This document shows, piece by piece, positions 1 through 12,800 of a stretch of 64,000 bases of DNA (positions within the stretch are counted from its first letter, which is position 1; each line of letters starts with the position of its first letter). The notes under the pieces are model-generated. The model was not told where the DNA came from, did not search any database, and saw only the letters and a program-made list of their open reading frames with translations. The translations under genes were made by a program, and so were the position numbers. This DNA comes from Hippopus hippopus (Eukaryota; Mollusca; Bivalvia; Cardiida; Cardiidae), in NCBI GenBank assembly GCA_946811185.2, contig OX328102.1, positions 16,865,194-16,929,193 of the forward strand, given 5' to 3'.

Positions 1-2809
1 CATCAACATCATATCCAATTTTTATTGCATTACATCTTCCTCCGGACAAACCATCCCTCGGATCGATAGGGTCCCAATGTGGATATAACTTTTCAATGAG
101 TTTTTTGTACTCTTTATCCTTCATCTTAGCATCAAATTCGTGTTCCCAAATGTACACTACATTATATCCCATGTCTTCGATATCTGCTATACGTTCAAAA
201 GTACATTTGAACAATTCAGACATGGGTTTTCCATTAATAGGATTGATCTGTTTTCGATCTGTATAGCATACAGGACAACCATGATAAAAATCTCCAAGAA
301 ATTCATAAACAGTGTTTGTTTGATGGTGAAAACCATCTACACTATATTTCCCGATTTGAGCTTCACCACCATTTTTTGCATGCTGAATATTAATACCTTT
401 TTCCTGGGCAACGCTTTGAACCCATCGTATCGCTTTCATAGAAAAGCGACGTCTGGATGAGTCTTTACTTGAAATGATAGCTATTTGATTTTCTGGTAAA
501 TATTTGCTTCGCCACACCTTGTTACAGGCATCTGCGATGGTAATCGCCTCTAAAAATGGACAAATACCACCCTGTTCGATAAACAGCTTTCTGAATTCAG
601 CACATCCTCGTCTGAGGATATCAACATCTGACCTACAGTACATTTCCATCTCCTTCTGAAAATTGAATTCCTCACCATTTCGAACTTTGTCATTATACCA
701 AACTATAAATTTTGACCTAGCCTCTTCAGACATTGAATCGGGTTTGTAATAAGACATATCCAAGTAGGGTCCGATGTAACTCCAAAATTCATCTGTATTT
801 GCCCAGTGAGGAAAGTAACCTTTTTTCATTTCTTGAAGGTCAAAGGTGGATGGAAATTTTGCCAAACCAAAACTCATGAAATTGAAAGAATCGATCAGAC
901 GTACACCGTTCAGTTCTAACTTCATAATATTGTTTCCATTCATGATCACTTTTGGAAGTTTTAACCCAACTTTGACAATATAGTCAAGAATGAACTGACC
1001 GTCATAACCTTTGAAATTATGGGCAATAGCCGTAACCCCTTTATGATGTTTTGAAAAGAGCCAGTTGCAAAATTGACTCAAAGTTTCTTCACCTTGAAAA
1101 ATAACTTCCCTACCCTCTTCAAATTCACTGCATGTAGAACAATGAAAATCAAGTGATTTATCGATACATTCATCACACGCTCTGTGTGCAATACAATAAT
1201 TCGGGATGTGCACACCTGTGTCTTGTTTGCATTCAAAATCAAAGAAAATAAACTGTGTTTTTTTGACTACAGAAGAACTCGTCTCGTCATCGCTGTCATG
1301 GTTCAACTTACTTTGGTAAGGCTGAATATAGCATTGATGAGAAAAGTTAACAATTCTCTTACAGATATGACACCTTTTCTTTCCATTGCAAACATGATTT
1401 TTCTTTCTGACATGATATTGTGCACCGCATTTCGAGCAGAGTTTCACTAATTCACAAATGGATTTCTTTTCTTTACCTTGAACATTTCTGTGATTTTCAA
1501 AGCATTCAGCACTAAAAAAACGTCTACTGCAAACACTGCAAACATATTCTTTTGATTCTGATGGACATTTTCCTTTGCGGTAACAACCTTTACAGATATT
1601 TGAACAAGCATGACTTTCCCGGTTAGAGTAACCCACATCACAGAACTCACAATAATATGCACAACTAAGAAAACCTTTGATAGATTTGATGTAGTCATAA
1701 TGGTTTTGATGAAAGTACAAATGTATGATCTTACTATTGGCTTTCACTTCTGGATGTTTAAATATTTTTTCCACTTTTGAATGCTGTTGGTGAACTTTAA
1801 TGACATAGCCTTTTTCATACAAGAATGTTTGAATTTTTTTGTATTCATCAATTCCTACAGACTGTGTTGGTGAAACTCCAACTTCATGTAACAATTTCTC
1901 AGCTTCAGTCTTTTGAAGAGGACATTTTGAATGACGAATACGATCCCATTTTCTATTCCATGCCTCGGTGTTTTCACGCTCACTGTAGCAAATTCCCACA
2001 ACAACAGCTCTTGCGAAACATAGTTGGTCATGATTGTCAATTTGAATAATAGATCGCTTCTTCTGGGTAAAAAACTTTGAATCTAATTCTGACGATCTAT
2101 ATTTTGGTTTTCCGCTACCACTTGGTGGTATTGTATGTGTGATGTCAAATGTCATGAATCCATCGTTCAAGACGAAATCTGTATTCGATTGTAAAACTCG
2201 TTCAATTTCATTCAGCATAGTTTCACCTTGTAACTGACCTGCAGCTAAAAAAGGAATATGGATTCCCATTTCCAACGAAGGATGATTGATGGTAATTCTA
2301 ATCATGTCCGTCGGGTTGGCATTTAACTTTCGAATGATTTCACGGGTAACATCGTCAAATAATCCAAGGAGTCTCTGAGGTGTTAATTCTTCAAATTTCT
2401 TAAAACTCAGCATCAGCACATGTGATTCTGTTTTAAATTTTCTTGACCTCTTATTACCCTTTTCTGTTAAATCATATAGACTTTTCATGTCTAAGTTAGA
2501 GTTGGTACTTTCATCGTTGCTATCATTTTCTTCTTTCAACGGTTTAGTTTTTTTCTTTTTTGTTGGTGGAAGCACCTCATCGTCACTTTCTTCTTTCAAC
2601 GGTTTAGTTTTTTTCTTTTTTGTTGGTGGAAACACCTCATCGTCACTTTCTTCTTTCAACGGTTTAGTTTTTTTCTTTTTTATTGATGGAAATACCTCAT
2701 CGTCACTTTCTTCTTTCAAAGGTCTAGTTTTTTTCTTTTTTATTGGTGGAAACACCTCATCGTCACTTTCACTGTCTGAATAGGTTATTATTCTTTTTCT
2801 TTTACCCAT
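1..2809 (-). CDS. Protein-primed family-B DNA polymerase (DNA_pol_B_2), 3' end outside window
   Basis: Replicative DNA polymerase; the frame is open from the ATG at 2809 to the window edge (936 codons seen). Residues 1-80 are acidic/lysine-rich and include four 20-residue repeats. Residues about 370-500 hold a cluster of CxxC and C/H pairs, probably zinc-binding. The 3'-5' exonuclease follows: Exo I DFE at 524-526, Exo II NFKGYD from 598, Exo III YCRSDVD from 724. A segment with EFLGDFYHGCP and IWEHEFD (about 836-890) matches the insertion usual in Polinton and adintovirus polymerases. The last residues, RDGLSGGR, lead into the palm, whose catalytic aspartates lie outside the window. The start is set by a TATA box on the same strand (2863-2872). 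It is divergent from the 2967 gene. Family assignment is secure; virus versus transposon is not. Confidence 0.9.
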   Translation of the reverse strand, partial: MGKRKRIITYSDSESDDEVFPPIKKKKTRPLKEESDDEVFPSIKKKKTKPLKEESDDEVFPPTKKKKTKPLKEESDDEVLPPTKKKKTKPLKEENDSNDESTNSNLDMKSLYDLTEKGNKRSRKFKTESHVLMLSFKKFEELTPQRLLGLFDDVTREIIRKLNANPTDMIRITINHPSLEMGIHIPFLAAGQLQGETMLNEIERVLQSNTDFVLNDGFMTFDITHTIPPSGSGKPKYRSSELDSKFFTQKKRSIIQIDNHDQLCFARAVVVGICYSERENTEAWNRKWDRIRHSKCPLQKTEAEKLLHEVGVSPTQSVGIDEYKKIQTFLYEKGYVIKVHQQHSKVEKIFKHPEVKANSKIIHLYFHQNHYDYIKSIKGFLSCAYYCEFCDVGYSNRESHACSNICKGCYRKGKCPSESKEYVCSVCSRRFFSAECFENHRNVQGKEKKSICELVKLCSKCGAQYHVRKKNHVCNGKKRCHICKRIVNFSHQCYIQPYQSKLNHDSDDETSSSVVKKTQFIFFDFECKQDTGVHIPNYCIAHRACDECIDKSLDFHCSTCSEFEEGREVIFQGEETLSQFCNWLFSKHHKGVTAIAHNFKGYDGQFILDYIVKVGLKLPKVIMNGNNIMKLELNGVRLIDSFNFMSFGLAKFPSTFDLQEMKKGYFPHWANTDEFWSYIGPYLDMSYYKPDSMSEEARSKFIVWYNDKVRNGEEFNFQKEMEMYCRSDVDILRRGCAEFRKLFIEQGGICPFLEAITIADACNKVWRSKYLPENQIAIISSKDSSRRRFSMKAIRWVQSVAQEKGINIQHAKNGGEAQIGKYSVDGFHHQTNTVYEFLGDFYHGCPVCYTDRKQINPINGKPMSELFKCTFERIADIEDMGYNVVYIWEHEFDAKMKDKEYKKLIEKLYPHWDPIDPRDGLSGGRCNAIKIGYDVD
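2531..2770 (-). repeat. Four 60-bp tandem repeats in the polymerase N-terminus
   Basis: Four near-identical 60-bp units encode alternating acidic (EESDDEV) and basic (KKKKTKPLK) blocks of 20 residues each. The length is a multiple of three, so copy-number change would keep the frame. The basic blocks look like nuclear localisation signals. Confidence 0.9.
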
Positions 2810-2966
2810 CGTTTTAGCTCTGAGTGAAAAGACAATAATGCAGAAGTGAGAAAAAAACCGGCAATTTATATACCCTCTCCGTTGTAACAGTGTATAAATA
2901 AGCCGTTAGTTGTGAAAATCTATTCATTCTCCTACTCGATCTCAGTCAGTACAGCTGATAAAAAAT
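2810..2966. promoter_or_regulatory. Bidirectional promoter between polymerase and zinc-knuckle gene
   Basis: The 157-bp intergenic space holds two TATA boxes facing opposite ways: one for the polymerase on the minus strand (2863-2872) and TATAAATA for the plus-strand gene (2893-2900). Each lies 54-67 bp from its start codon. No CRE or CCAAT module like those of the small genes is seen here. Confidence 0.75.
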
Positions 2967-3845
2967 ATGAGTGAGTTAAAGCTGCAAAATACATCACCAC
3001 TTAAAAACAGGGTGTATCTGTATGTTAATCCATACACCCACGATTATGAGATCAGCAATATACCATCAAAGTATAATGTTAAACATATCGGAAACTATGT
3101 GGGATCATTTTTTTCCCAGCAACATTTAGAAGAAAAAGATGTTTACCGTACTACCAGGTACAGAGTTTTGGATCAAGCGACGCTCGACAAACGATATGGT
3201 GCGAATGGTGTGAGAACAAATATTTGTTTCACATGCAACGAAGTAGGACATTGGGCCAAAGAATGTCCAGAAAAAGAAAATCAGCTAGGAACATTTGTTT
3301 TTGTCTACGTGAACCCACACAGTCACGACATTGAGATTTCACCATCATTTTACAACGTTGGTGGATTCAAAGATATGAAATTCGTCGGCACACTAAATTC
3401 ATTCTGCAGTGAAAATACATGGAAAAAAAGTTCACTACAAGCTATATCCTCATCGGCTGAAACTCAGATCGTAGACATGCAGAGCGATACAGCGGCTAAC
3501 AACGATTCAGAAATCTGCAAAATAACAGAACAGACAGAGAAAAAAATATCTACAAACGATAATCTAAGAAAACAACAAACTTTGGATCTAAAAAACGAAT
3601 TTTCTGCAGAACCGGGTTGTTCGTACGGAAAGGAAAAACAGCAAAACATCGAAAAGAAGAAAAAACGAGTAACAAAGAACTATTTCTTTTACAAATCAAC
3701 AAAACATGAGGACAAAATCTGTCCAGATGTGGAATTAAAAACCAACGATCGGAAAAGAAAACGTAAAACCAAATGTGAATCTGACATCTCAAAGAAAAAG
3801 AAAAAAAACATACTGAGTGAAAAAAAGATTTCAATACAATATTGA
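2967..3845 (+). CDS. Zinc-knuckle protein with duplicated domain, basic C-terminus
   Basis: 292 residues, family not recognised. A domain of about 40 residues occurs twice (about 15-55 and 110-150), each with the pattern V-Y-V-N-P-x-(T/S)-H-D-x-E-I-S. Between the copies sits one CCHC zinc knuckle, CFTCNEVGHWAKECPE, with CX2CX4HX4C spacing. The last 130 residues are lysine-rich with nuclear-localisation-like runs. A nucleic-acid-binding role is an inference from the knuckle and the basic tail. The ATG lies 66 bp after a TATA box and opens the frame. It is transcribed divergently from the polymerase, which suggests shared, perhaps early, expression. No stem-loop follows it; an AATAAA does (3964), unlike the small genes downstream. 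Confidence 0.8.
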   Translation: MSELKLQNTSPLKNRVYLYVNPYTHDYEISNIPSKYNVKHIGNYVGSFFSQQHLEEKDVYRTTRYRVLDQATLDKRYGANGVRTNICFTCNEVGHWAKECPEKENQLGTFVFVYVNPHSHDIEISPSFYNVGGFKDMKFVGTLNSFCSENTWKKSSLQAISSSAETQIVDMQSDTAANNDSEICKITEQTEKKISTNDNLRKQQTLDLKNEFSAEPGCSYGKEKQQNIEKKKKRVTKNYFFYKSTKHEDKICPDVELKTNDRKRKRKTKCESDISKKKKKNILSEKKISIQY

Positions 3846-3963
3846 TTATAAACAAAAAAGACTGACTTGATTTTTCATTCATTTTTGTCTTTTACAGTTC
3901 ATTCATTTTTTGTCTTTACAGTTCATGATTTGATTTTTTTCATTGTACATAAGTTCTTTTTGA

Positions 3964-3969
3964 AATAAA
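3964..3969 (+). terminator. Candidate poly(A) signal AATAAA
   Basis: AATAAA lies 119 nt after the zinc-knuckle gene's stop, in a T-rich stretch. It is the only hexamer of the kind before the convergent minus-strand gene. Confidence 0.5.
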
Positions 3970-4060
3970 AAATATAAAAATAATTACTTCTTACTTTTGA
4001 CTTTTTTCTAGTTATGACTGTAAGTCTTTTTTTTTACTTTTGACAATTTGAGAAGAAAGA

Positions 4061-4095
4061 TCTTTCGTGCTAAATGGTTAGCCCTGAAAAGGGCT
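4061..4095 (-). terminator. Histone-type 3' stem-loop and downstream element (minus strand)
   Basis: Read on the minus strand, AGCCCTTTTCAGGGCT (4080-4095) is a 6-bp stem with a TTTC loop, preceded by a run of A and followed by AACCA. Ten nt after the stem comes CACGAAAGA (4061-4069). Layout and loop match the replication-dependent histone mRNA 3' end (stem-loop for SLBP, purine element for U7 snRNP; sea-urchin consensus CAAGAAAGA). It begins 32 nt after the stop codon of the gene at 4128-4334. Confidence 0.8.
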
Positions 4096-4127
4096 TTTTT
4101 TGAAGGATCTCACATTGACATTCAGCT

Positions 4128-4334
4128 CTACGATTCTTCCACCCGATCCACTGGGATGATTTCGCATCCACAGTGTTCGCAGCAAATCGCCGAAGCTTCA
4201 TCGTCATCATAAAATCCTTCATCTGTATCTGGACAGTTATGCTTCTGTCCAAGATACTCGAGTATGGAAAAACATTTCCCACACTCTATCAGACATCTGT
4301 TTGCACAGTGAGGACATACAAGAATTCGAACCAT
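4128..4334 (-). CDS. Small cysteine-rich, probably zinc-binding protein
   Basis: 68 residues beginning MVRILVCPHCANRC. It has a first metal-site-like cluster (CPHC, C, CGKC), an acidic middle (DTDEGFYDDDE) and a second cluster (CCEHCGC). No family recognised; the pattern suggests two zinc ribbons or a treble clef. An in-frame ATG exists at 4370, but it overlaps the TATA box (4375-4381, minus strand), so the ATG at 4334, 41 nt past the box, is the likely start. The mRNA would be short and end at the histone-type stem-loop 32 nt beyond the stop. A promoter module identical in layout drives the 7114 gene. Confidence 0.7.
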   Translation of the reverse strand: MVRILVCPHCANRCLIECGKCFSILEYLGQKHNCPDTDEGFYDDDEASAICCEHCGCEIIPVDRVEES

Positions 4335-4374
4335 TCTGGAACAAATATGATTTTTTATGTAAAATATCACTGGG

Positions 4375-4458
4375 CTTTATAGCTTTACAGGAGGATTGAA
4401 CTAACTGACCTATGACGTCATTTTCTCCTATATTTTTTCCCGCGTCGGCGTTTCATTA
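4375..4458 (-). promoter_or_regulatory. Promoter with TATA and TGACGTCA, minus strand
   Basis: On the minus strand, a block beginning ATGAAACGCCGACGCGGG runs through TGACGTCA (4413-4420) to a TATA box (4375-4381). The same block in the same order precedes the plus-strand gene at 7114 (6983-7070), with only scattered differences. TGACGTCA is the palindromic CRE/ATF site. Confidence 0.75.
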
Positions 4459-4535
4459 ACATTGCGCAATCAAATCGATGGTTATATCGGTGTTTTTTAC
4501 CACTCCTAATTCGGTGTCACACAGTACAATACCGG

Positions 4536-4683
4536 TGCTTTCCGCCAGGTCCGCCCTCTTTAAAAATTTCAATCCTCTGTAAACGTATAAAGCTCAGTGT
4601 TATTTTCATACATTCACCATTTCTTTGATTCACAGCTAACGATCACTTCGGAAGCAGTATCAATATTCAGAGTCAGTTACAAT
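4536..4683 (+). promoter_or_regulatory. Promoter and 5' leader of the 4684 gene
   Basis: TATAAAG at 4586-4592 lies 98 nt before the ATG. The whole stretch from 4536 to about 4670 recurs upstream of the gene at 6364 (6220-6350), with the box-to-ATG distance kept at 98 nt, so core promoter and leader were duplicated together. Confidence 0.75.
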
Positions 4684-5346
4684 ATGAAGCACAACTTAGA
4701 TGAAATCAGCTTGGACGATTTTCCATCAGTGGAAAACAATGGAGACGTTCTTTCATCAGTTATGAATTCGACAATTATCAATCCACCACCGGAGTTAAAT
4801 CCGACAACCATCATTCCAGCGATAGTGTTTGACAACATTTATGAAGAGGTAAAGCAGCTAAATTTGAAACAAGATAGCATGATGATCCGAATCATAGATC
4901 AGCTGGAGACTTTAAACAGGCATTTGGAGGAAATTAAAACTTTAACCGTAAGTACTGATCAGCTCAGTAGTAATATCGAGGTACTACGTCAACAAGATCA
5001 GCGCATTTCAACACCTCCTGTAAAGATTCCTGTGGAGTTCGAGTTTGATAAATCCAATCTTCACAACTTAGTGGACTCTATCGTAAGTGTTGTGAAGAAA
5101 AATCAACCAAAGAAAAATCAGCCAAAGGAAAAACAACCAAGAAAAACAACAAAGCGGAAATCTGAGGAAGATGGTAACCATATCCACAAGAAGCAGCGAA
5201 TTGATCAAAAACCAACTATACCAATATTGACAGGACAGGGTAAATACGGGAAAAACATTGACAATCACGTTGATTTCAAGATACCGAAAAAACCAAAGAC
5301 AGAACGAAAACAACCAAGAAAAAACAACAAAACGGTAGGAATATGA
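4684..5346 (+). CDS. Lysine-rich protein with acidic N-terminus and coiled coil, unknown
   Basis: 220 residues from MKHNLDEISL; not recognised. Residues 1-25 are acidic/hydrophobic (LDEISLDDFPSVE). Residues about 50-110 have heptad-like spacing consistent with a coiled coil. From about 135 on it is strongly basic, with repeated K-K-N-Q-P and K-R-K motifs, suggesting nuclear localisation and DNA or RNA binding. A role as a core or condensing protein is only a guess. The frame is open further upstream, but the ATG at 4684 follows a TATA box by 98 nt and its leader matches that of the 6364 gene. No histone-type stem-loop follows; AATAAA motifs occur only 540-570 nt downstream, beyond an AT-rich repeat. 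Confidence 0.7.
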   Translation: MKHNLDEISLDDFPSVENNGDVLSSVMNSTIINPPPELNPTTIIPAIVFDNIYEEVKQLNLKQDSMMIRIIDQLETLNRHLEEIKTLTVSTDQLSSNIEVLRQQDQRISTPPVKIPVEFEFDKSNLHNLVDSIVSVVKKNQPKKNQPKEKQPRKTTKRKSEEDGNHIHKKQRIDQKPTIPILTGQGKYGKNIDNHVDFKIPKKPKTERKQPRKNNKTVGI

Positions 5347-5399
5347 AAAACAAATATGAAACTCGTGGTGTTTGCGAATTTACATTATAAAAATTTGTT

Positions 5400-5890
5400 A
5401 TATACTGTTTTTGCGATTAATTCATTGTAAAATAATTCATTGCAAAAAATAATTCAGTGTGTTTTTTCATCGTGATCAAATCGTTGTGAATAATTCATTG
5501 CGAAAAAATAATTCAGTGTGTTTTTTTTCATCGTGATCAAATCGTTGTGAATAATTCATTGTGAAAAAAATATTTCAGTGCGATTTTTTCATTGTTATCA
5601 AATCGTTGTGAATAATTCATTGTGAAAAAATATTTCAGTGCGATTTTTTCATTGTTAAGAAAATGTTTTTTCATTGTCAAGAAATTTTTTATGATGCATT
5701 GCAAAAAATGATTGCTTGTGATTTTTTTTAGTTGTTAAGAAATTTTTTCATTGTCAAGAAATTTTTTTATGATGCATTGCAAAAAAATGTTTGCTTGTGA
5801 TTTTTTTCATTGTCAAGAAATTTTTTTCATTGTCAAGAAATTTTTTATGATGCATTGCAAAAAAATGTTTCAATGTTTAGTTCTGTTCAG
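5400..5890. repeat. AT-rich tandem repeat array
   Basis: About 490 bp built from degenerate units of two kinds: one with TTCATTGTGAAAAAAT and ATCGTTGTGAATAATTCA (5400-5660, about 75 bp per unit), and one with TGATGCATTGCAAAAAA and TTCATTGTCAAGAAATTTTT (5660-5890). It lies between two genes and holds no plausible coding frame. It ends at two AATAAA motifs (about 5893-5910). It could be a long 3' UTR, a recombination hot spot or an origin-like AT-rich region. Confidence 0.8.
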
Positions 5891-6014
5891 TAAATAAAAG
5901 TTCAATAAATAAAAGTTCAAAAACAATAGAGTTCTTCATTCTGTTTTCCCCAAAAGACTTGTTCTGGTTACATTTTTCCATACAACGTCTCATGACTGTT
6001 AGTTAAACTCTAGT

Positions 6015-6363
6015 TTTTCTTACCCGAAAAAAGAAAATGTAACAAACCTATGGATTGGGTAACAATAAATCCCCCCCCGAACAAGAAAATGTAACAAACC
6101 CACGGGTTGGTCAACAATAAAACAATTAGTATTAGAAAAAACAACGGTGAATCTGATTGGATAACATTAATTTGGAACCAAAACAGCATGAAACGTAGCA
6201 TGGAAAAAATGTATGTGCTTTCTGCCAGGTCCGAACTCTTTAAAAATTTCAATCCTCCTTAAACGTATAAAGTCCAGCGTTATTTTCATACATTCACCAT
6301 TTCTTTGATTCTCAGCTAACGATCACTTCGAAAGCAGTGTCAATATTAGGAAACATTATCAAT
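6015..6363 (+). promoter_or_regulatory. Composite promoter of the 6364 gene
   Basis: The upstream half (6015-6190) has two copies of AAGAAAATGTAACAAACC followed by TTGG, with inverted CCAAT boxes (ATTGG) at 6054 and 6156. It matches the upstream half of the 7114 promoter. The downstream half (6220-6350), with TATAAAG at 6266-6272, matches the promoter of the 4684 gene. It is therefore a chimera of the two other promoter types. Confidence 0.75.
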
Positions 6364-6630
6364 ATGGAGGAGGTAAATCATCAACTACGTGAGGCTCTCC
6401 GAGAGTATCTAAATGCAGGGCAGCAGTTATTGCAACTAACCACTCGTCTCGTAGGAGAGGAGGAACAAAACCAACTGCAACGTATAACACAGCCATACAA
6501 AGATCTCGGCGAAAGATTAGTTCAGCTATTATTAAAGACAACACCGGATATCATTTTGGTTGATATCGAGTTCGGGAGGAAGATTACAGCATGCCCCATT
6601 TGCCAAGCGAATTTCGGGTGTTGCCATTAG
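6364..6630 (+). CDS. Small protein with coiled-coil body and cysteine tail
   Basis: 88 residues from MEEVNHQLRE. Residues 1-70 are amphipathic with regular leucines (helical or coiled coil). The protein ends in TACPICQANFGCCH, whose CPxC...GC pattern is shared with the end of the 7114 product (CPACRKVGGCA). No known family recognised. The ATG lies 98 nt after TATAAAG; an in-frame GTG at 6337 is not needed. The stop is followed 32 nt later by a histone-type stem-loop. The shared tail, promoter parts and 3' end suggest this gene and 7114 are diverged members of one expression class. Confidence 0.7.
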   Translation: MEEVNHQLREALREYLNAGQQLLQLTTRLVGEEEQNQLQRITQPYKDLGERLVQLLLKTTPDIILVDIEFGRKITACPICQANFGCCH

Positions 6631-6662
6631 AACTGGAAAAAACACAGCCTCCAAAACAAAAC

Positions 6663-6697
6663 AGCCCTTTTCAGGGCTACCCATCTACCACGAAAGT
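6663..6697 (+). terminator. Histone-type 3' stem-loop and downstream element
   Basis: AGCCCTTTTCAGGGCT (6663-6678) is followed at once by ACCCA, the canonical histone 3' flank, and after 10 nt by CACGAAAG (6689-6696). The 5' flank is A-rich. It begins 32 nt after the stop of the 6364 gene, a spacing normal for histone mRNAs. Confidence 0.85.
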
Positions 6698-6804
6698 TCT
6701 ATCTTTCTTTAAATTGTCATTTCTTCAAATTGTCAAACTTCTTTCTTTTAGAAGAGTTACACTGCAAAGATTCACAATCAAAAAAAAAAGTCATAGATTA
6801 GCCA

Positions 6805-7113
6805 AACTCTAGTTTTTTCTAACCCGATCAAGAAAATGTAACAACCCCACGGATTGGTCAACAATAAAATCCCCGAACAAGAAAATGTAACAAACCCACG
6901 GATTGGACAACAATAAAACATTTAGTATTAGAAATAAAACGCTGATTCTGATTGGATAACATTAATTTGGAGCCAAAACAGCATGAAACGCCGACGCGGG
7001 AAAAACATAGGAGAAAATGACGTCATGGGTCAACTAGTTCAATCCGTCTGAAAACCTATAAAACCCAGTGTCATTTCCCGCACATCGTTCATTCTCTTCG
7101 ACTTGTAGACAAC
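6805..7113 (+). promoter_or_regulatory. Promoter of the 7114 gene
   Basis: Contains inverted CCAAT boxes (ATTGG) at 6853, 6902 and 6951, the shared AAGAAAATGTAACAA motifs, CGCCGACGCGGG, TGACGTCA at 7018-7025 and TATAAAA at 7057-7063, 51 nt before the ATG. The upstream half duplicates 6015-6190; the downstream half duplicates the inverted module at 4375-4458. Confidence 0.8.
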
Positions 7114-7347
7114 ATGGAGTGTGGTTTAAGAGACATGGATTTTTGGGACCTTGCCCAGCTATCATCCAGAAAAAAGATGGACGACAAGAAGAAGGAGTTC
7201 GTCGTACCCCAGACCGAGTGCTGGGATGATGACAACAAGCCAGCGTTCTCGCTAAACTTCAACCTGGATGAACGGGAGTTGAAGAGGCTAAAGAGGCGGG
7301 CAGCAAGTAGCTGTCCAGCCTGCAGAAAGGTTGGAGGTTGTGCTTAA
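7114..7347 (+). CDS. Small charged protein with CPxC...GC tail
   Basis: 77 residues: MECGLRDMDFWDLAQL at the start, a mixed-charge centre, a basic helix ERELKRLKRRAA, then SSCPACRKVGGCA at the C-terminus. Base composition is more GC-rich than its neighbours. The family is not recognised; the cysteine tail recurs in the 6364 product. The ATG sits 51 nt after TATAAAA. A degenerate stem (TCCCT-TTT-AGGGA, near 7367) and then a perfect histone-type stem-loop (7393) follow the stop. A structural or DNA-binding role is conceivable from the basic helix, but nothing proves it. Confidence 0.7.
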   Translation: MECGLRDMDFWDLAQLSSRKKMDDKKKEFVVPQTECWDDDNKPAFSLNFNLDERELKRLKRRAASSCPACRKVGGCA

Positions 7348-7392
7348 AAACACAACCTCCAAAACCAGCTCCCTTTTAGGGACACCCCAAAC

Positions 7393-7430
7393 AGCCCTTT
7401 TCAGGGCTAACCATCTACCACGGAAGATCT
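7393..7430 (+). terminator. Histone-type 3' stem-loop and downstream element
   Basis: AGCCCTTTTCAGGGCT (7393-7408), then AACCA, then CACGGAAGA (7419-7427). It begins 45 nt after the stop of the 7114 gene and has the same layout as the copies at 4080 and 6663. Confidence 0.85.
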
Positions 7431-7568
7431 ACCTTTCTTCAAATTGTCAGACGTAAGTTCTATCTTTTCTTCAAATTGTCATTTCTTCAAATTGTCAGAC
7501 GAAAGTTCTACCTTCAAGCTGTTAGACGAAAGTTCTATCTTCAAATTGTCATTTCTTCAAATTGTCAC

Positions 7569-7584
7569 AGCTCTTTTCAGAGCT
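7569..7584 (+). terminator. Histone-like stem-loop, variant stem AGCTCT/AGAGCT
   Basis: Same TTTC loop and 6-bp stem as the other copies, but base pair 4 is T-A instead of C-G on both arms: a compensatory change. It is followed by AACCC. Confidence 0.7.
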
Positions 7585-7593
7585 AACCCCAAC

Positions 7594-7627
7594 AGTCCTT
7601 TTCAGGACTAACCATCTACCACGAAAG
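7594..7627 (+). terminator. Histone-like stem-loop, variant stem AGTCCT/AGGACT, with purine element
   Basis: Compensatory change at pair 3 relative to the AGCCCT type (7594-7609), followed by AACCATCTAC and CACGAAAGA (7620-7628 region). Confidence 0.7.
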
Positions 7628-7744
7628 ATCTATCTTCAAGATGTCAGACGAAAGTTCTATCTTCAAGCTGCCAGACGAAAGTTCTATCTTCAAGCTGTCA
7701 GACGAAAGTTCTATCTTCAAATTGTCATTTCTTCAAATTGTCAC

Positions 7745-7760
7745 AGCTCTTTTCAGAGCT
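7745..7760 (+). terminator. Histone-like stem-loop (second AGCTCT copy)
   Basis: Second copy of the AGCTCT/AGAGCT stem-loop, part of the 175-bp duplication. Confidence 0.65.
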
Positions 7761-7768
7761 AACCCAAC

Positions 7769-7804
7769 AGTCCTTTTCAGGACTAACCATCTACCACGAA
7801 AGTT
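7769..7804 (+). terminator. Histone-like stem-loop (second AGTCCT copy) with purine element
   Basis: Second copy of the AGTCCT/AGGACT stem-loop (7769-7784), with AACCA and CACGAAAG following. Confidence 0.65.
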
Positions 7805-7849
7805 CTATCTTTCTTTTAGAAGAGATACACTCCAGAGAGTTATACTGCA

Positions 7850-8345
7850 AAGAGTAAGAATCATACATAGGTGTAGAAAAAAGACTAAGTCCAACTCAAT
7901 GGTCAACCTTTTTAAAAGAGAGAAAATCATTCATAGATGCAGAAAAATCAGAAAGACTAAGTCCAACCCAGTGCTCAAACATTTAGAAATCATTCATAGA
8001 GATGCAGAAAAAAGTCTAAGTCCAACTCAGTGATATAGGGACAAATTCCTTTTAGAAAGAGAAAAATCATTCATAGGGGAAAAAAGTCTAAGTCCAACTC
8101 AATGCTTAGGCAATTAAAAAGAGAATTCATAGTTGAAAAAAGACTAAGTCCAACTCAATGGTTAGACATTTAGAAATCATACATAGGGTAAAAAAAGTCT
8201 AAGTGCAACTCAGTGCTCAGACATTTAGAGAGAAGAAATCAATCATAGATAAGAAAAAGTCTAAGTCCAACTCAATGGTCAGGCAATTAGAAAGAAAAAA
8301 ATCATCCATAGGGTGAAAAAACTAAGTCCAACTCAGTGATCTGAC
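7850..8345 (+). repeat. Tandem repeat of about 60-70 bp, eight units
   Basis: Each unit has the sequence AAGTCCAACTCAATGGTCA near its end and ATCATTCATAG near its start; units begin near 7880, 7950, 8010, 8080, 8140, 8195, 8255 and 8320. No gene is seen in it. Short open frames across it are by-products of the repeat. Confidence 0.8.
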
Positions 8346-8379
8346 CATTTTTTACCCAACCTACCAGTCATAAGATCTG

Positions 8380-8636
8380 CACTTTGAATGCTAATTCCCT
8401 CTCAGGGTAGAGAGCCTGGGAAAAACTCCCCCCCTTTTCGCTTTTTTGCAAAAAATTCCGCTCAGGGACGGGAGCCTGGGGCATTTTTGTCCCCAGAGTG
8501 CCATCCACACGGCCGCCATTTTGAATGCTAAATCCCTCTCAGGGTAGAGAGTATGGGATATTTTTTTTAAAAAATCTTTCGGGGACAGCATATAGGGACA
8601 CATTTTTTGTCAGGGACGGTGATATAGGGCGCTCAG
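8380..8636 (+). repeat. G-rich direct repeats near element end
   Basis: Two imperfect copies of a block starting TTTGAATGCTAATTCCCTCT and containing CAGGGTAGAGAG and CAGGGACGG (about 8384-8490 and 8520-8636). G-rich CAGGGA motifs recur five or more times. This composition is unlike both the AT-rich arrays on the left and the host DNA on the right. Confidence 0.65.
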
Positions 8637-8689
8637 GGAGGGGAGCATGGGATCTACCCCCGGCCTGGGTAGATCCCATGCTCCCCTCC
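8637..8689. repeat. Perfect 23-bp hairpin, candidate element terminus
   Basis: Left arm 8637-8659 and right arm 8667-8689 are exact inverted repeats around a 7-nt loop. A stem this long and perfect, right after the G-rich repeats and right before host-like sequence, suggests a terminal or resolution structure of the element; this is inference. Confidence 0.6.
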
Positions 8690-8760
8690 TTTACTACTTA
8701 TGTGCATCTATCATCGTTAAACCCATACGAGGAGAAAAAATAGACTCGTCCATAAGGTAA

Positions 8761-9813: not shown

Positions 9814-12800
9814 CTGCGAAAGAAACACTGAATTTAAAATTGCTGTCAGATATCGAATCTTACGTATAACAGCGCTGAAGATAGAAAGAACTCTTCACTG
9901 CCAATTGCGACCTAAAATAGCTTATGCGGACGTCGTAGACCAAGATTAGACTGCAAAGAAAGTGCAGCCTGATCTTTGATCTACATCAACGGCGATCTAA
10001 TACAAAATTATGACCAAAACCAACTCGACCTGCATTGGAAAAGCACTGGGTTTCTGGTGAGAGTTTCCTTGGCGAAGATGCTTCAGACCCCTTGCCTTAT
10101 ACTGGTGTAACCTAGGACACACATGAATATGTGAGCTGTCACTGCGATATGACTGGAATTATGTTGAATGCAGCGTAAAACACCATTAATCAATCTATCA
10201 ACCAACTGCTTTGTAACTGTACTGTACATAGACCTTACAACAGGTCGAATTCATTTATTAGCAGCGACAGAGTTGACTCATTCGTTAAGGGAGTCCGTAA
10301 TCACCAACCATTCTTAATTGCATTCTTAGTCTAATTCTAGATTACGAAAAGAGCACAAGTTCTAATTGGCTAATTCAGTCGGTTTAGCCAATAGTAAGTT
10401 GTGGTACTTTCTAGTCTTAAAATTATTGAGAATAATAACGTTACTAAGAATGTTCTTAAAAATGGTTGTTGAATACGGGTCTAGGGTCAGCTATAATATT
10501 GTAACAAAAGTTATTGTTAACTCGTCATTTTGGAAGACGAGCCGTACCGAGGAAGAGATCGTGGAATGTGCAGATGCCTTAGTTAAAGCTTGCTAACCAA
10601 GAATGTTACTTATTAGCGTTATATAACAAAGTTCGAAAAGGTCAGTAGTTCGTGTCACACAATAGTACGGTGGCACAAAAGTGACATGGAAGATATATTT
10701 TATACTACGTGCGCACGCAGTAGCTAATACGTGCGCACGTAATAAGTAATACGTGCGCACGCAGTAGTATTACGTGCGCACGTATTACCTACTGCGTGCG
10801 CACGTAGTATAAAATATATCTTCCATGTCACTTTTGTGCCACCGTACAATAGACATAAGAGAGAAGGAAAAACATTAAAGGCAATAACTGGGTCAGACGA
10901 CTCGCAATATCTTGGATAACAACTCCAGTGCCACTGAAATATTGTTATTAATAAAACTGTCTAAAGACTTGCTTGCTATCAGCGAAAGTAATATAGCCAG
11001 AGTGACCATGATTATTTGCACTTTGAAACTGCCTTGTGTGTGATCTATCGATATACTCCTCTGCGAATTCTGTCCAGCAATAAATTCTTTTAAACACCGC
11101 ATAGATCTCATAGATCTATTTAGAGACATTCGAGAAAAACTAATTTTACTGAAACCCTTTACCACACAATCCTTTTTAACGACACTGACTCTGAAGGCTT
11201 TTGAAAACACTGTTCGTAGGCTGACCTTGATCGAAACGTTTCGCTATTGTAAAATTTCTCCCACATTCTATCCATTCTACTTCATGATTCTGCCGGTTGC
11301 TCTAACTAGACAAAAGGGATTTTATGGATCCATAATTATGAGATGACTTGCTTGGTATAATGAAGCACAGAGATGCATTAAACCCCCTTTTACCAGAGCG
11401 CAGTATCGGTGGCAACAGATTCTATATAGCAGATTATATTCACATAACCACTCAGACATACCAAATAAGTCTTATTCTTTTGCCCTCTGCATTTCCGTGT
11501 TAGTACGAACCTTTTTCTTAAAACTGAATGGTGTTTAATATAGCATTTTATCGCGCAAAGGATTCTTTCCTTTCGGGTAAGTTCAAAACTATTTTCGAAA
11601 AAAGAAAGGCATCGACCCTCAAGCCTAGTCACTGCTTTTGAAATAAATGTTCACATTAACAATTAGAATGTGACTCTGAGAAAGGATAGTTTTGAAAACA
11701 TTGTGGGAAAATGAGAAATTGCTTCCACATTGGTTTCTATCCTTTTAAGAACAAATCCCATAACTATGACAGCATTTTTTGGCTGTTTTATCCTTATCCT
11801 GCTAATAAATGAAACTTTCAAGCCGACAGTAAAAACCCAAATACTGCTAATACAAAGTTTTTTTTTTTTTTTTTTTGAGAAAAAATCTCTCCCAAGGGAC
11901 AGTGTAGACCCAAGATCAGACTGCCCGTCCTGTGCAGTCTGATCTTGATCTATACTGTCCGCAAAAGGTCCTTGAGTCGCGCTTAGCAGCCTAGGAGTTA
12001 TTTTATTTTTTTTTTTTTAAATGTAATACCATACAATAAAATACTATACAATACAATATTTTATTCAATACTAATGCCACTGGCCCATTATATTTTACAA
12101 TGATAAGCGATTAAATCCCAACTTAATCTAGGCTTTGTCACTACTACAACAACAGCAAAAATATCAAAACTACCATCACATGTCTGCAAATTCATAACGG
12201 AAATACTGCGATCTAAGAAACTCACATAAAAGTTGTCGGACTCAGATGTATTCGGCCTGGTACCCCATGACTTTCCATTCTCGACGCAGTGTTGACGGTG
12301 TCCCCAAATAAACAATATCGGGGCATCTTTTTGCCCACCACACCCGCTACGACCGGGCCTGTATGAATACCAACCCTTATCTGAAACAGGAAGTGTTGTG
12401 TTATAAGTATTAAAAATAGCGAGATTACAGGATTATACCAATTTTTTACCGTCATTAAAGAGTATCATTATATCTATGCTTTGTACACTACATGTACCTT
12501 AATCGAGTTTTTATGAATAAATCCTGCATATCTACATTCTTTTTCTTCGGTATTTCATTAATCCTTTTTGCAGCATTATTTATGATTATTTATCGAACTT
12601 GTTCTTAAAGAGGCCTATTCAGTTTTAATGCTTTAAATAAACGTTTCTTGTATAACACCCATTAACACTATTAGATATTTGTTTCTTTGCTTTGGTATAA
12701 ACTGTGCAGCTACACTCAGTAAAAAGGTGCACTTTTGGAGCATTTTCATAACAGGATAGTCGCTATAAGGTAACTCTGTCTATTTTTATTCTGTCAGATG

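Follow-up and report, generated by a model that had tools for sequence, protein, structure and literature searches.

Do the small genes of a virus-like mobile element end their messages in the way that the host ends its histone messages? The question is raised by a 64,000-nt stretch of Hippopus hippopus DNA (the window), the first 8.7 kb of which (1–8698; the remaining window is 55.3 kb) form the right-hand part of a Polinton/adintovirus-like dsDNA element. A first-pass annotation of this stretch had noted, downstream of the element's small genes, stem-loops (SLs) of histone type followed by a motif resembling the downstream purine-rich element (HDE) of histone mRNAs. To our knowledge, 3′ ends of this type are generally regarded as peculiar to replication-dependent histone genes, and the literature searched, which excluded most subscription papers, yielded no account of a virus or mobile element that has them. 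Past the stop codons of the small genes lie the elements of a histone 3′ end, at a spacing that matches the host's own histone genes and with a strong bias to paired stems. We infer from these features, with a probability of about 0.78, that the mRNAs of the small viral genes are processed by SLBP and U7, linked to S phase and free of poly(A).

Perfect hairpins with a 6-bp stem and a TTTC loop, counted on both strands and compared with 200 dinucleotide shuffles, number eight in the first 8.7 kb (shuffle mean 0.09, maximum 1) and nine in the whole window (shuffle mean 0.44, maximum 3). Seven of the eight are of the AGYYCT type, the eighth (322–337, minus strand) being of another type, and this count confirms the seven hairpins first reported, at 6663, 7393, 7569, 7594, 7745 and 7769 on the plus strand and at 4080–4095 on the minus strand. 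The distances from stop codon to SL given for three genes (32 nt for those at 6364 and 4128, 45 nt for that at 7114) are likewise borne out, as is the downstream motif, with CACGAAAG at 6689, 7620 and 7795 (plus) and 4069 (minus) and CACGGAAG after the 7393 copy. The genes and their 3′ modules are as follows.

4128–4334, minus: 68-aa Cys-rich protein gene, histone-type SL downstream
4080–4095, minus: SL AGCCCT TTTC AGGGCT, 32 nt past the stop of the 68-aa gene
4062–4069, minus: HDE-like CACGAAAG, after the SL of the 68-aa gene
4041–4049, minus: third element AAATTGTCA, after the same SL
6364–6630, plus: 88-aa protein gene, histone-type SL downstream
6663–6678, plus: SL AGCCCT TTTC AGGGCT, flanks AAAAC / ACCCA, 28.5 bits with the Rfam model Histone3
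6689–6697, plus: HDE-like CACGAAAGT, after the 6663 SL
6711–6719, plus: third element AAATTGTCA, second copy at 6727–6735
7114–7347, plus: 77-aa protein gene, histone-type SL downstream
7393–7408, plus: SL AGCCCT TTTC AGGGCT, 45 nt past the stop of the 77-aa gene
7419–7427, plus: HDE-like CACGGAAGA, after the 7393 SL
7441–7449, plus: third element AAATTGTCA, after the 7393 SL
7569–7584, plus: SL AGCTCT TTTC AGAGCT, in an array, next SL 9 nt on, without its own HDE
7594–7609, plus: SL AGTCCT TTTC AGGACT, in the array, HDE-like CACGAAAGA at 7620
7745–7760, plus: SL AGCTCT TTTC AGAGCT, array copy of 7569, without its own HDE, next SL 8–9 nt on
7769–7784, plus: SL AGTCCT TTTC AGGACT, array copy of 7594, HDE-like motif at 7795, without a TGTCA box

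The window copies follow the stem rule of histone SLs, with a 4-nt U-rich loop, G-C as second pair and U-A as top pair. They are not seven independent cases, because 7569/7594 and 7745/7769 are copies inside one tandem array (in which the 7594 copy has GATGTCA); moreover, all six plus-strand SLs sit in the terminal inverted repeat (TIR), so that each is present twice in the element. A degenerate SL-like stretch, CTCCCTTTTAGGGAC, lies at 7369–7383, 21 nt past the 7114 stop and ahead of the 7393 SL.

The viral ends share with the replication-dependent histone mRNA ends of metazoans the 6-bp stem, the UUUC loop, the invariant second G-C and top U-A pairs, an A-rich 5′ flank, an ACCCA/AACCA 3′ flank, a purine element ~14 nt downstream and the TGTCA box of this host. 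They differ in belonging to non-histone genes of a mobile element, in an A-U first pair, in scoring below the gathering score of Histone3 (RF00032; 34 bits), and in standing several in a row at places. A genome-wide Histone3 scan, in which 75 of 305,864 first-look candidates were scored, gave at least 58 matches over the cut-off, all on C15, 57 of them in the histone cluster (40.6–41.5 Mb) and one beside an H2A.X-like gene; the window's own copies are not among the matches listed. Five host histone genes (H4, H2B, H2A, H1 and H2A.X, with H3 not included; loci L033 and L035) each show an SL, then an HDE-like element at +12/13, then TGTCA at +31 to +35. The HDE-like letters are GAAA, GAAAG, GAAT (H2A) or GAGAG (H1), the accepted letters having been fixed only after inspection of the sequences. 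All three viral genes (3/3) have GAAAG or GGAAG at +14 and TGTCA at +35 to +37; this purine-rich element thus stands at a host-like distance in the three genes, while the array copies 7569 and 7745 have none of their own. The proposed histone-type layout is therefore supported by the same three parts at nearly the same spacing in five host genes. By eye, the host end nearest the viral ones is that of the H2A.X-like gene (C15:26492280, L035), which shares the TTTC loop, GAAAG at +13 and a AAATTGTCA box, and differs in its G-C first pair and in being a cellular gene.

The third part, absent from the first-pass annotation, is represented in the element part of the window by 10 copies of AAATTGTCA (nine plus, one minus), all downstream of SL genes and in sense, with none in the other 55.3 kb; the motif was chosen post hoc, and the chance estimate of 2e-9 for 5/5 is only indicative. 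A shorter ATTGTCA also occurs at seven element sites unrelated to SLs. At the level of sequence, the TGTCA box ties the viral ends to the histone ends of this particular host, beyond the textbook consensus, and it may represent an undescribed third part of the host's histone 3′ ends. The host has SLBP: two pieces of its RNA-binding domain (PF15247) lie on C11, scoring 60.7 and 33.1 bits against a cut-off of 27, and the domain is found in 0/14 control genomes, all of them prokaryotes.

The 3′ module is abundant and constant. A 34-base module pattern has 6,669 matches genome-wide against 0 for its reversed control, and the 77-aa protein has 1,795 candidates in the genome, of which the 150 scored are 83–100% identical, 0 with an internal stop. 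From these 150, 45 gene 3′ ends were taken, spread across identities and chromosomes (two being both ends of one element). The stem is conserved across these homologous copies, the SL being identical in 45/45, and TGTCA lies 36 or 37 bases past it (counted from zero) in 45/45. Among seven copies of the 7114 gene the open reading frame (ORF) diverges pairwise by 16.5% (27.6% at third and 6.9% at second codon positions), with 0/336 differences in the SL and 0/189 in AAATTGTCA; for a set of 46 sequences the SL differs in 0/16,560 comparisons. Pairing provides a second line of evidence. In 18 hand-chosen modules (viral, host, and the loci L031 and L032 described below), pairing is kept in 98.1% of cells, and covariation scores 0.324, compared with 0.166 in shuffles, neither value being reached in 500 shuffles (0/500 each); two pairs are changed on both sides, from A-U to G-C in eight sequences and from C-G to U-A in five.

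The U·G and C·A half-way forms are each one transition from two common stems. Of the 96 distinct SL contexts at the loci examined, 14 have a U·G half-way stem and three a C·A one; across the genome the U·G form AGTCCT/AGGGCT is matched 250 times and the C·A form AGCCCT/AGGACT 10 times. These are counts of copies, which are not independent: of the 100 U·G sites listed, many form opposite-strand pairs ~5–14 kb apart. If selection acts on the transcript, the form that pairs only in the sense RNA should be in excess, as it is, and the strong bias to paired stems supports the suggestion that the structure is under selection.

Related elements carry such SLs as well. The 68-, 88-, 77- and 220-aa genes all have homologues in a relative at C1:12481500–12499000 (L066 and L067), which has an additional gene of 104 aa; its SLs lie 32 nt past the stop of the 68-aa gene, 51 nt past that of a 101-aa gene, 31 nt past that of the 104-aa gene, 42 nt past that of the 77-aa type, and 24, 48 and 72 nt past that of a 192-aa gene. 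This 192-aa gene (L066) is the homologue of the 220-aa window gene and, unlike it, carries three SLs. One SL in the array of this relative follows a 73-aa frame that we take as spurious; no SL follows its 197-, 164-, 289-, 298-, 212- and 169-aa ORFs. A third, diverged family (L032) was found through a Histone3 score of 25.8 bits. It encodes twice a protein resembling, by eye, that of 104 aa, and both copies are followed by an SL, a GAAAG element and AATTGTCA.

Several observations weigh against the processing of these ends as histone ends. The covariance check proposed in the first-pass annotation was run and matched five of the seven window SLs (28.5, 25.7, 22.9, 22.9 and 22.1 bits; E 1e-4 to 0.024), with no Histone3 match for the AGCTCT copies 7569 and 7745. 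Every viral SL is under the gathering score, and the gathering-level scan, which for this reason is silent on the window SLs, listed only a tRNA. The seven window copies open the stem with an A-U pair where the five host histones have G-C, the L032 SLs have one C·A stem mismatch, and host H2A itself has only a weak GAAT at the HDE place. Across the 96 contexts both boxes are present in 50, the HDE only in 10, TGTCA only in 4 and neither in 32, and at L067:3293 a perfect AGTCCT/TTTC/AGGACT SL lies 26 nt past a capsid-type ORF without an HDE or TGTCA box. Two of five covariation measures are unexceptional, namely the number of pairs changed on both sides (2, as many in 373/500 shuffles) and of further pair types (3, in 500/500). 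A host U7 snRNA was not recovered, the best score of its Rfam model being 25.9 bits (cut-off 34) in a repeat-like stretch, and a U7 Sm-site pattern, with 131 matches against 112 in the control, is not above background. Within the 3′ module the HDE varies most among the seven copies (9.5%), which are also conserved between stop and SL (2.5%) and past the module (3.1%); in the 46 sequences the stretch past the module differs by 0.17%, against 0.7% from SL to TGTCA. The SL and TGTCA box are thus constant and the HDE is not, and repeat homogenisation must explain part of the constancy. Because the surroundings of the module are also conserved, conservation alone was not taken as proof.

The poly(A) signals give a mixed picture. 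The two larger plus-strand genes had been contrasted with the SL genes as having AATAAA downstream, and two mRNA classes had been proposed. The contrast is less sharp than this: AATAAA follows the stop of the 292-aa gene by 118 nt but that of the 220-aa gene only at 546 nt, and it also occurs 232 nt past the stop of the SL-bearing 6364 gene. Two classes fit the window element only in part, since three SLs follow the 192-aa homologue of one of the "large" genes and one SL gene has AATAAA nearby. In the L066/L067 relative AATAAA lies 67–429 nt past the larger ORFs, often inside the next ORF, and says little.

These observations can be read differently. A host histone tail might have been captured and copied passively, no longer acting as a processing signal, with downstream polyadenylation used instead. 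The multiplication of copies through element amplification, the AATAAA past the 6364 gene, and the conserved surroundings with a varying HDE would all fit such a history, which we nevertheless consider improbable: SLs stand in sense after at least five gene types, 24–51 nt past the stop, the paired U·G half-way stems exceed the C·A ones, the A-U first pair is unlike that of the five host histone SLs, and the diverged L032 family shares the layout. Less probable again is that the SL/HDE arrays mainly serve replication, packaging or recombination as TIR repeats, or the processing of a non-coding RNA. Arrays of an SL + CGAAAG unit do occur in the TIRs between 7393 and 7800, in numbers that differ between elements, but outside the TIR a lone SL is present after the 68-aa gene (window 4080) and after its homologue (L066 2786), and the histone order and spacing are matched. 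That the hairpins reflect chance or composition, for which the sub-gathering Rfam scores are the sole point, is refuted by the shuffle mean of the 8.7 kb and by the empty reversed control of the genome-wide pattern, and is given next to no weight.

We favour processing of the viral ends as histone ends. Histone mRNAs are described as cut between SL and HDE, without poly(A) and linked to S phase (PMC7026596, PMC5011920). By analogy, host SLBP would bind the viral SL, and the U7 snRNP would pair with the GAAAG element ~14 nt downstream of it. CPSF73 would then cut between SL and HDE, ~5 nt past the stem, and the viral mRNA would end at the cut, lacking poly(A). Messages of this kind would be stable and translated for the most part in S phase, at a time when the viral polymerase, too, requires nucleotides; later they would decay. 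The CCHC zinc-knuckle gene (292 aa) would use its AATAAA; the other larger genes might do likewise, by weaker inference.

Some of the small genes also have upstream boxes of the TTTCCCGC type, which we take to be E2F-like.

4436–4443, plus: E2F-like TTTCCCGC, 109 nt upstream of the 68-aa gene
6996–7003, minus: E2F-like TTTCCCGC, upstream of the 77-aa gene, another at 7074–7081, plus

The boxes of the 77-aa gene lie 40 and 118 nt upstream of it, and in the relative they lie 149 nt ahead of the 68-aa homologue and 105 nt ahead of the 104-aa gene. The 77-aa homologue in L067 has a box at 6392, although none is counted for it when distances are taken from an upstream ATG. Within 200 nt upstream, 0/8 of the larger non-SL ORFs listed have such a box; nor was one found ahead of the 88/101-aa, 192-aa and capsid-type SL genes. 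Three such boxes occur in the first 8.7 kb and six in the remaining 55.3 kb of the window, and L068, L070 and L071, shorter stretches on C1, have none.

Polymerase and capsid-type genes sit apart in the two elements read, one of either kind, which have small genes and 3′ modules in common. In the relative no polymerase ORF was seen, and an adenovirus-type protease (PF00770) is present in L067 (24.7 bits, cut-off 21.3); further ORFs, none of which reaches a Pfam cut-off, we take by eye as packaging ATPase, penton and capsid protein. A split or helper/satellite pair of elements may thus exist in the genome. A wider proposal is put forward tentatively and at somewhat less than even odds, the split being seen in one element per kind: a large animal DNA virus-like family, its polymerase and capsid genes divided between elements, would express its small regulatory genes from E2F-like promoters as mRNAs of histone type that are locked to S phase and lack poly(A). 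Such a family would constitute a viral mimic of the host histone expression programme down to the 3′ end, TGTCA box included. If the processing is as proposed, a DNA virus-like element can tie mRNAs to S phase via the 3′ end, on thousands of gene copies. Thousands of natural SLBP/U7 substrates would then be available, and an additional conserved box in host histone genes would be indicated.

The element as a whole spans 14,044 bp (C7:16859848 to 16873891), the rest of it lying left of the window. It starts with AGTAGTAAAGG and ends with CCTTTACTACT, and TATGTG abuts both sides. The other features of its window part are listed below.

2–2808, minus: DNA polymerase B, N-terminal part, no Pfam match itself, homologues found
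2967–3845, plus: 292-aa CCHC zinc-knuckle protein gene, without SL, AATAAA 118 nt past the stop
4684–5346, plus: 220-aa protein gene, without SL in the window, AATAAA at +546
5893–5913, plus: AATAAA cluster (5893, 5904, 5908), putative poly(A) signal of the 220-aa gene
5338–8698: right TIR, 3.36 kb, 99.6% identical by BLAST to L034:4649–8008 (L034 being the 10 kb left of the window) in reverse orientation
8699–8704, plus: target-site duplication TATGTG, 6 bp, identical to the 6 bp at the left end

Polintons and adintoviruses have TIRs starting with AG and a 6-bp target duplication as hallmarks. The element shares with Polintons/Mavericks and adintoviruses (Adintoviridae) a PF03175 polymerase B (PolB) of the viral/organellar type, long TIRs starting with AG and the 6-bp duplication, and its relative may share with them an adenovirus-type protease and capsid-like ORFs. 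Unlike them, the two elements read have no recognised integrase, carry polymerase and capsid-type genes separately, and have histone-type 3′ ends. No integrase was seen by eye (window element, L066/L067 ORFs) or by Pfam among the scanned ORFs, no dedicated genome search having been made; no capsid ORF and no adenovirus-type protease was recognised in the window element. In an adintovirus survey searched by terms (PMC11071296), "stem-loop" occurs 0 times and "histone" twice, for histone-like proteins. The N-terminal part of the polymerase has 186 homologues at E ≤ 0.001, the closest being 77% identical and Mercenaria-named proteins 45–52% (best 120 of 186), and the C-terminal part (L034:8694–9989) matches PF03175 (E 2.9e-25). 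Pfam assigned no family to a further frame of the element, up to 250 aa long, and no convincing one to the small proteins. Similar CPxCxxxxGC ends are seen in the 88-aa (window 6592–6627) and 77-aa (7312–7344) proteins, and the 68-aa protein is Cys-rich; judged by these residues, the three may share a zinc-binding tail.

In IMG/VR two SL patterns were without match, and a third matched contigs L120, inside a long phage-type ORF, and L121, with no downstream boxes in the 320 bases around the match; both were taken as chance. No confirmed relatives of the 68-aa protein, the PolB part or a 13-member PolB alignment were found there, and the protein collection held no homologues of the 104-aa protein. 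Among phages, the polymerase had a single match in the collection searched, over 70 residues in a Vibrio phage, and the module DNA had none.

On C1, the shorter stretches L068–L071 have SL arrays ~5 kb apart in opposite orientation and are probably internally deleted relatives that retain the 3′ modules. A host-type SL (Histone3 31.4 bits) lies at C8:42665067 (L031:4073), near an ORF that by eye is transposase-like, with no adjacent histone ORF seen. Just inside the right end of the window element is a 23-bp perfect palindrome with a 7-nt spacer (8637–8689), and the same stretch is found at the left end (L034). Outside the element, an 83-nt inverted repeat (window 10662–10850, 98% complementary, 23-nt loop) is probably a small foldback repeat.

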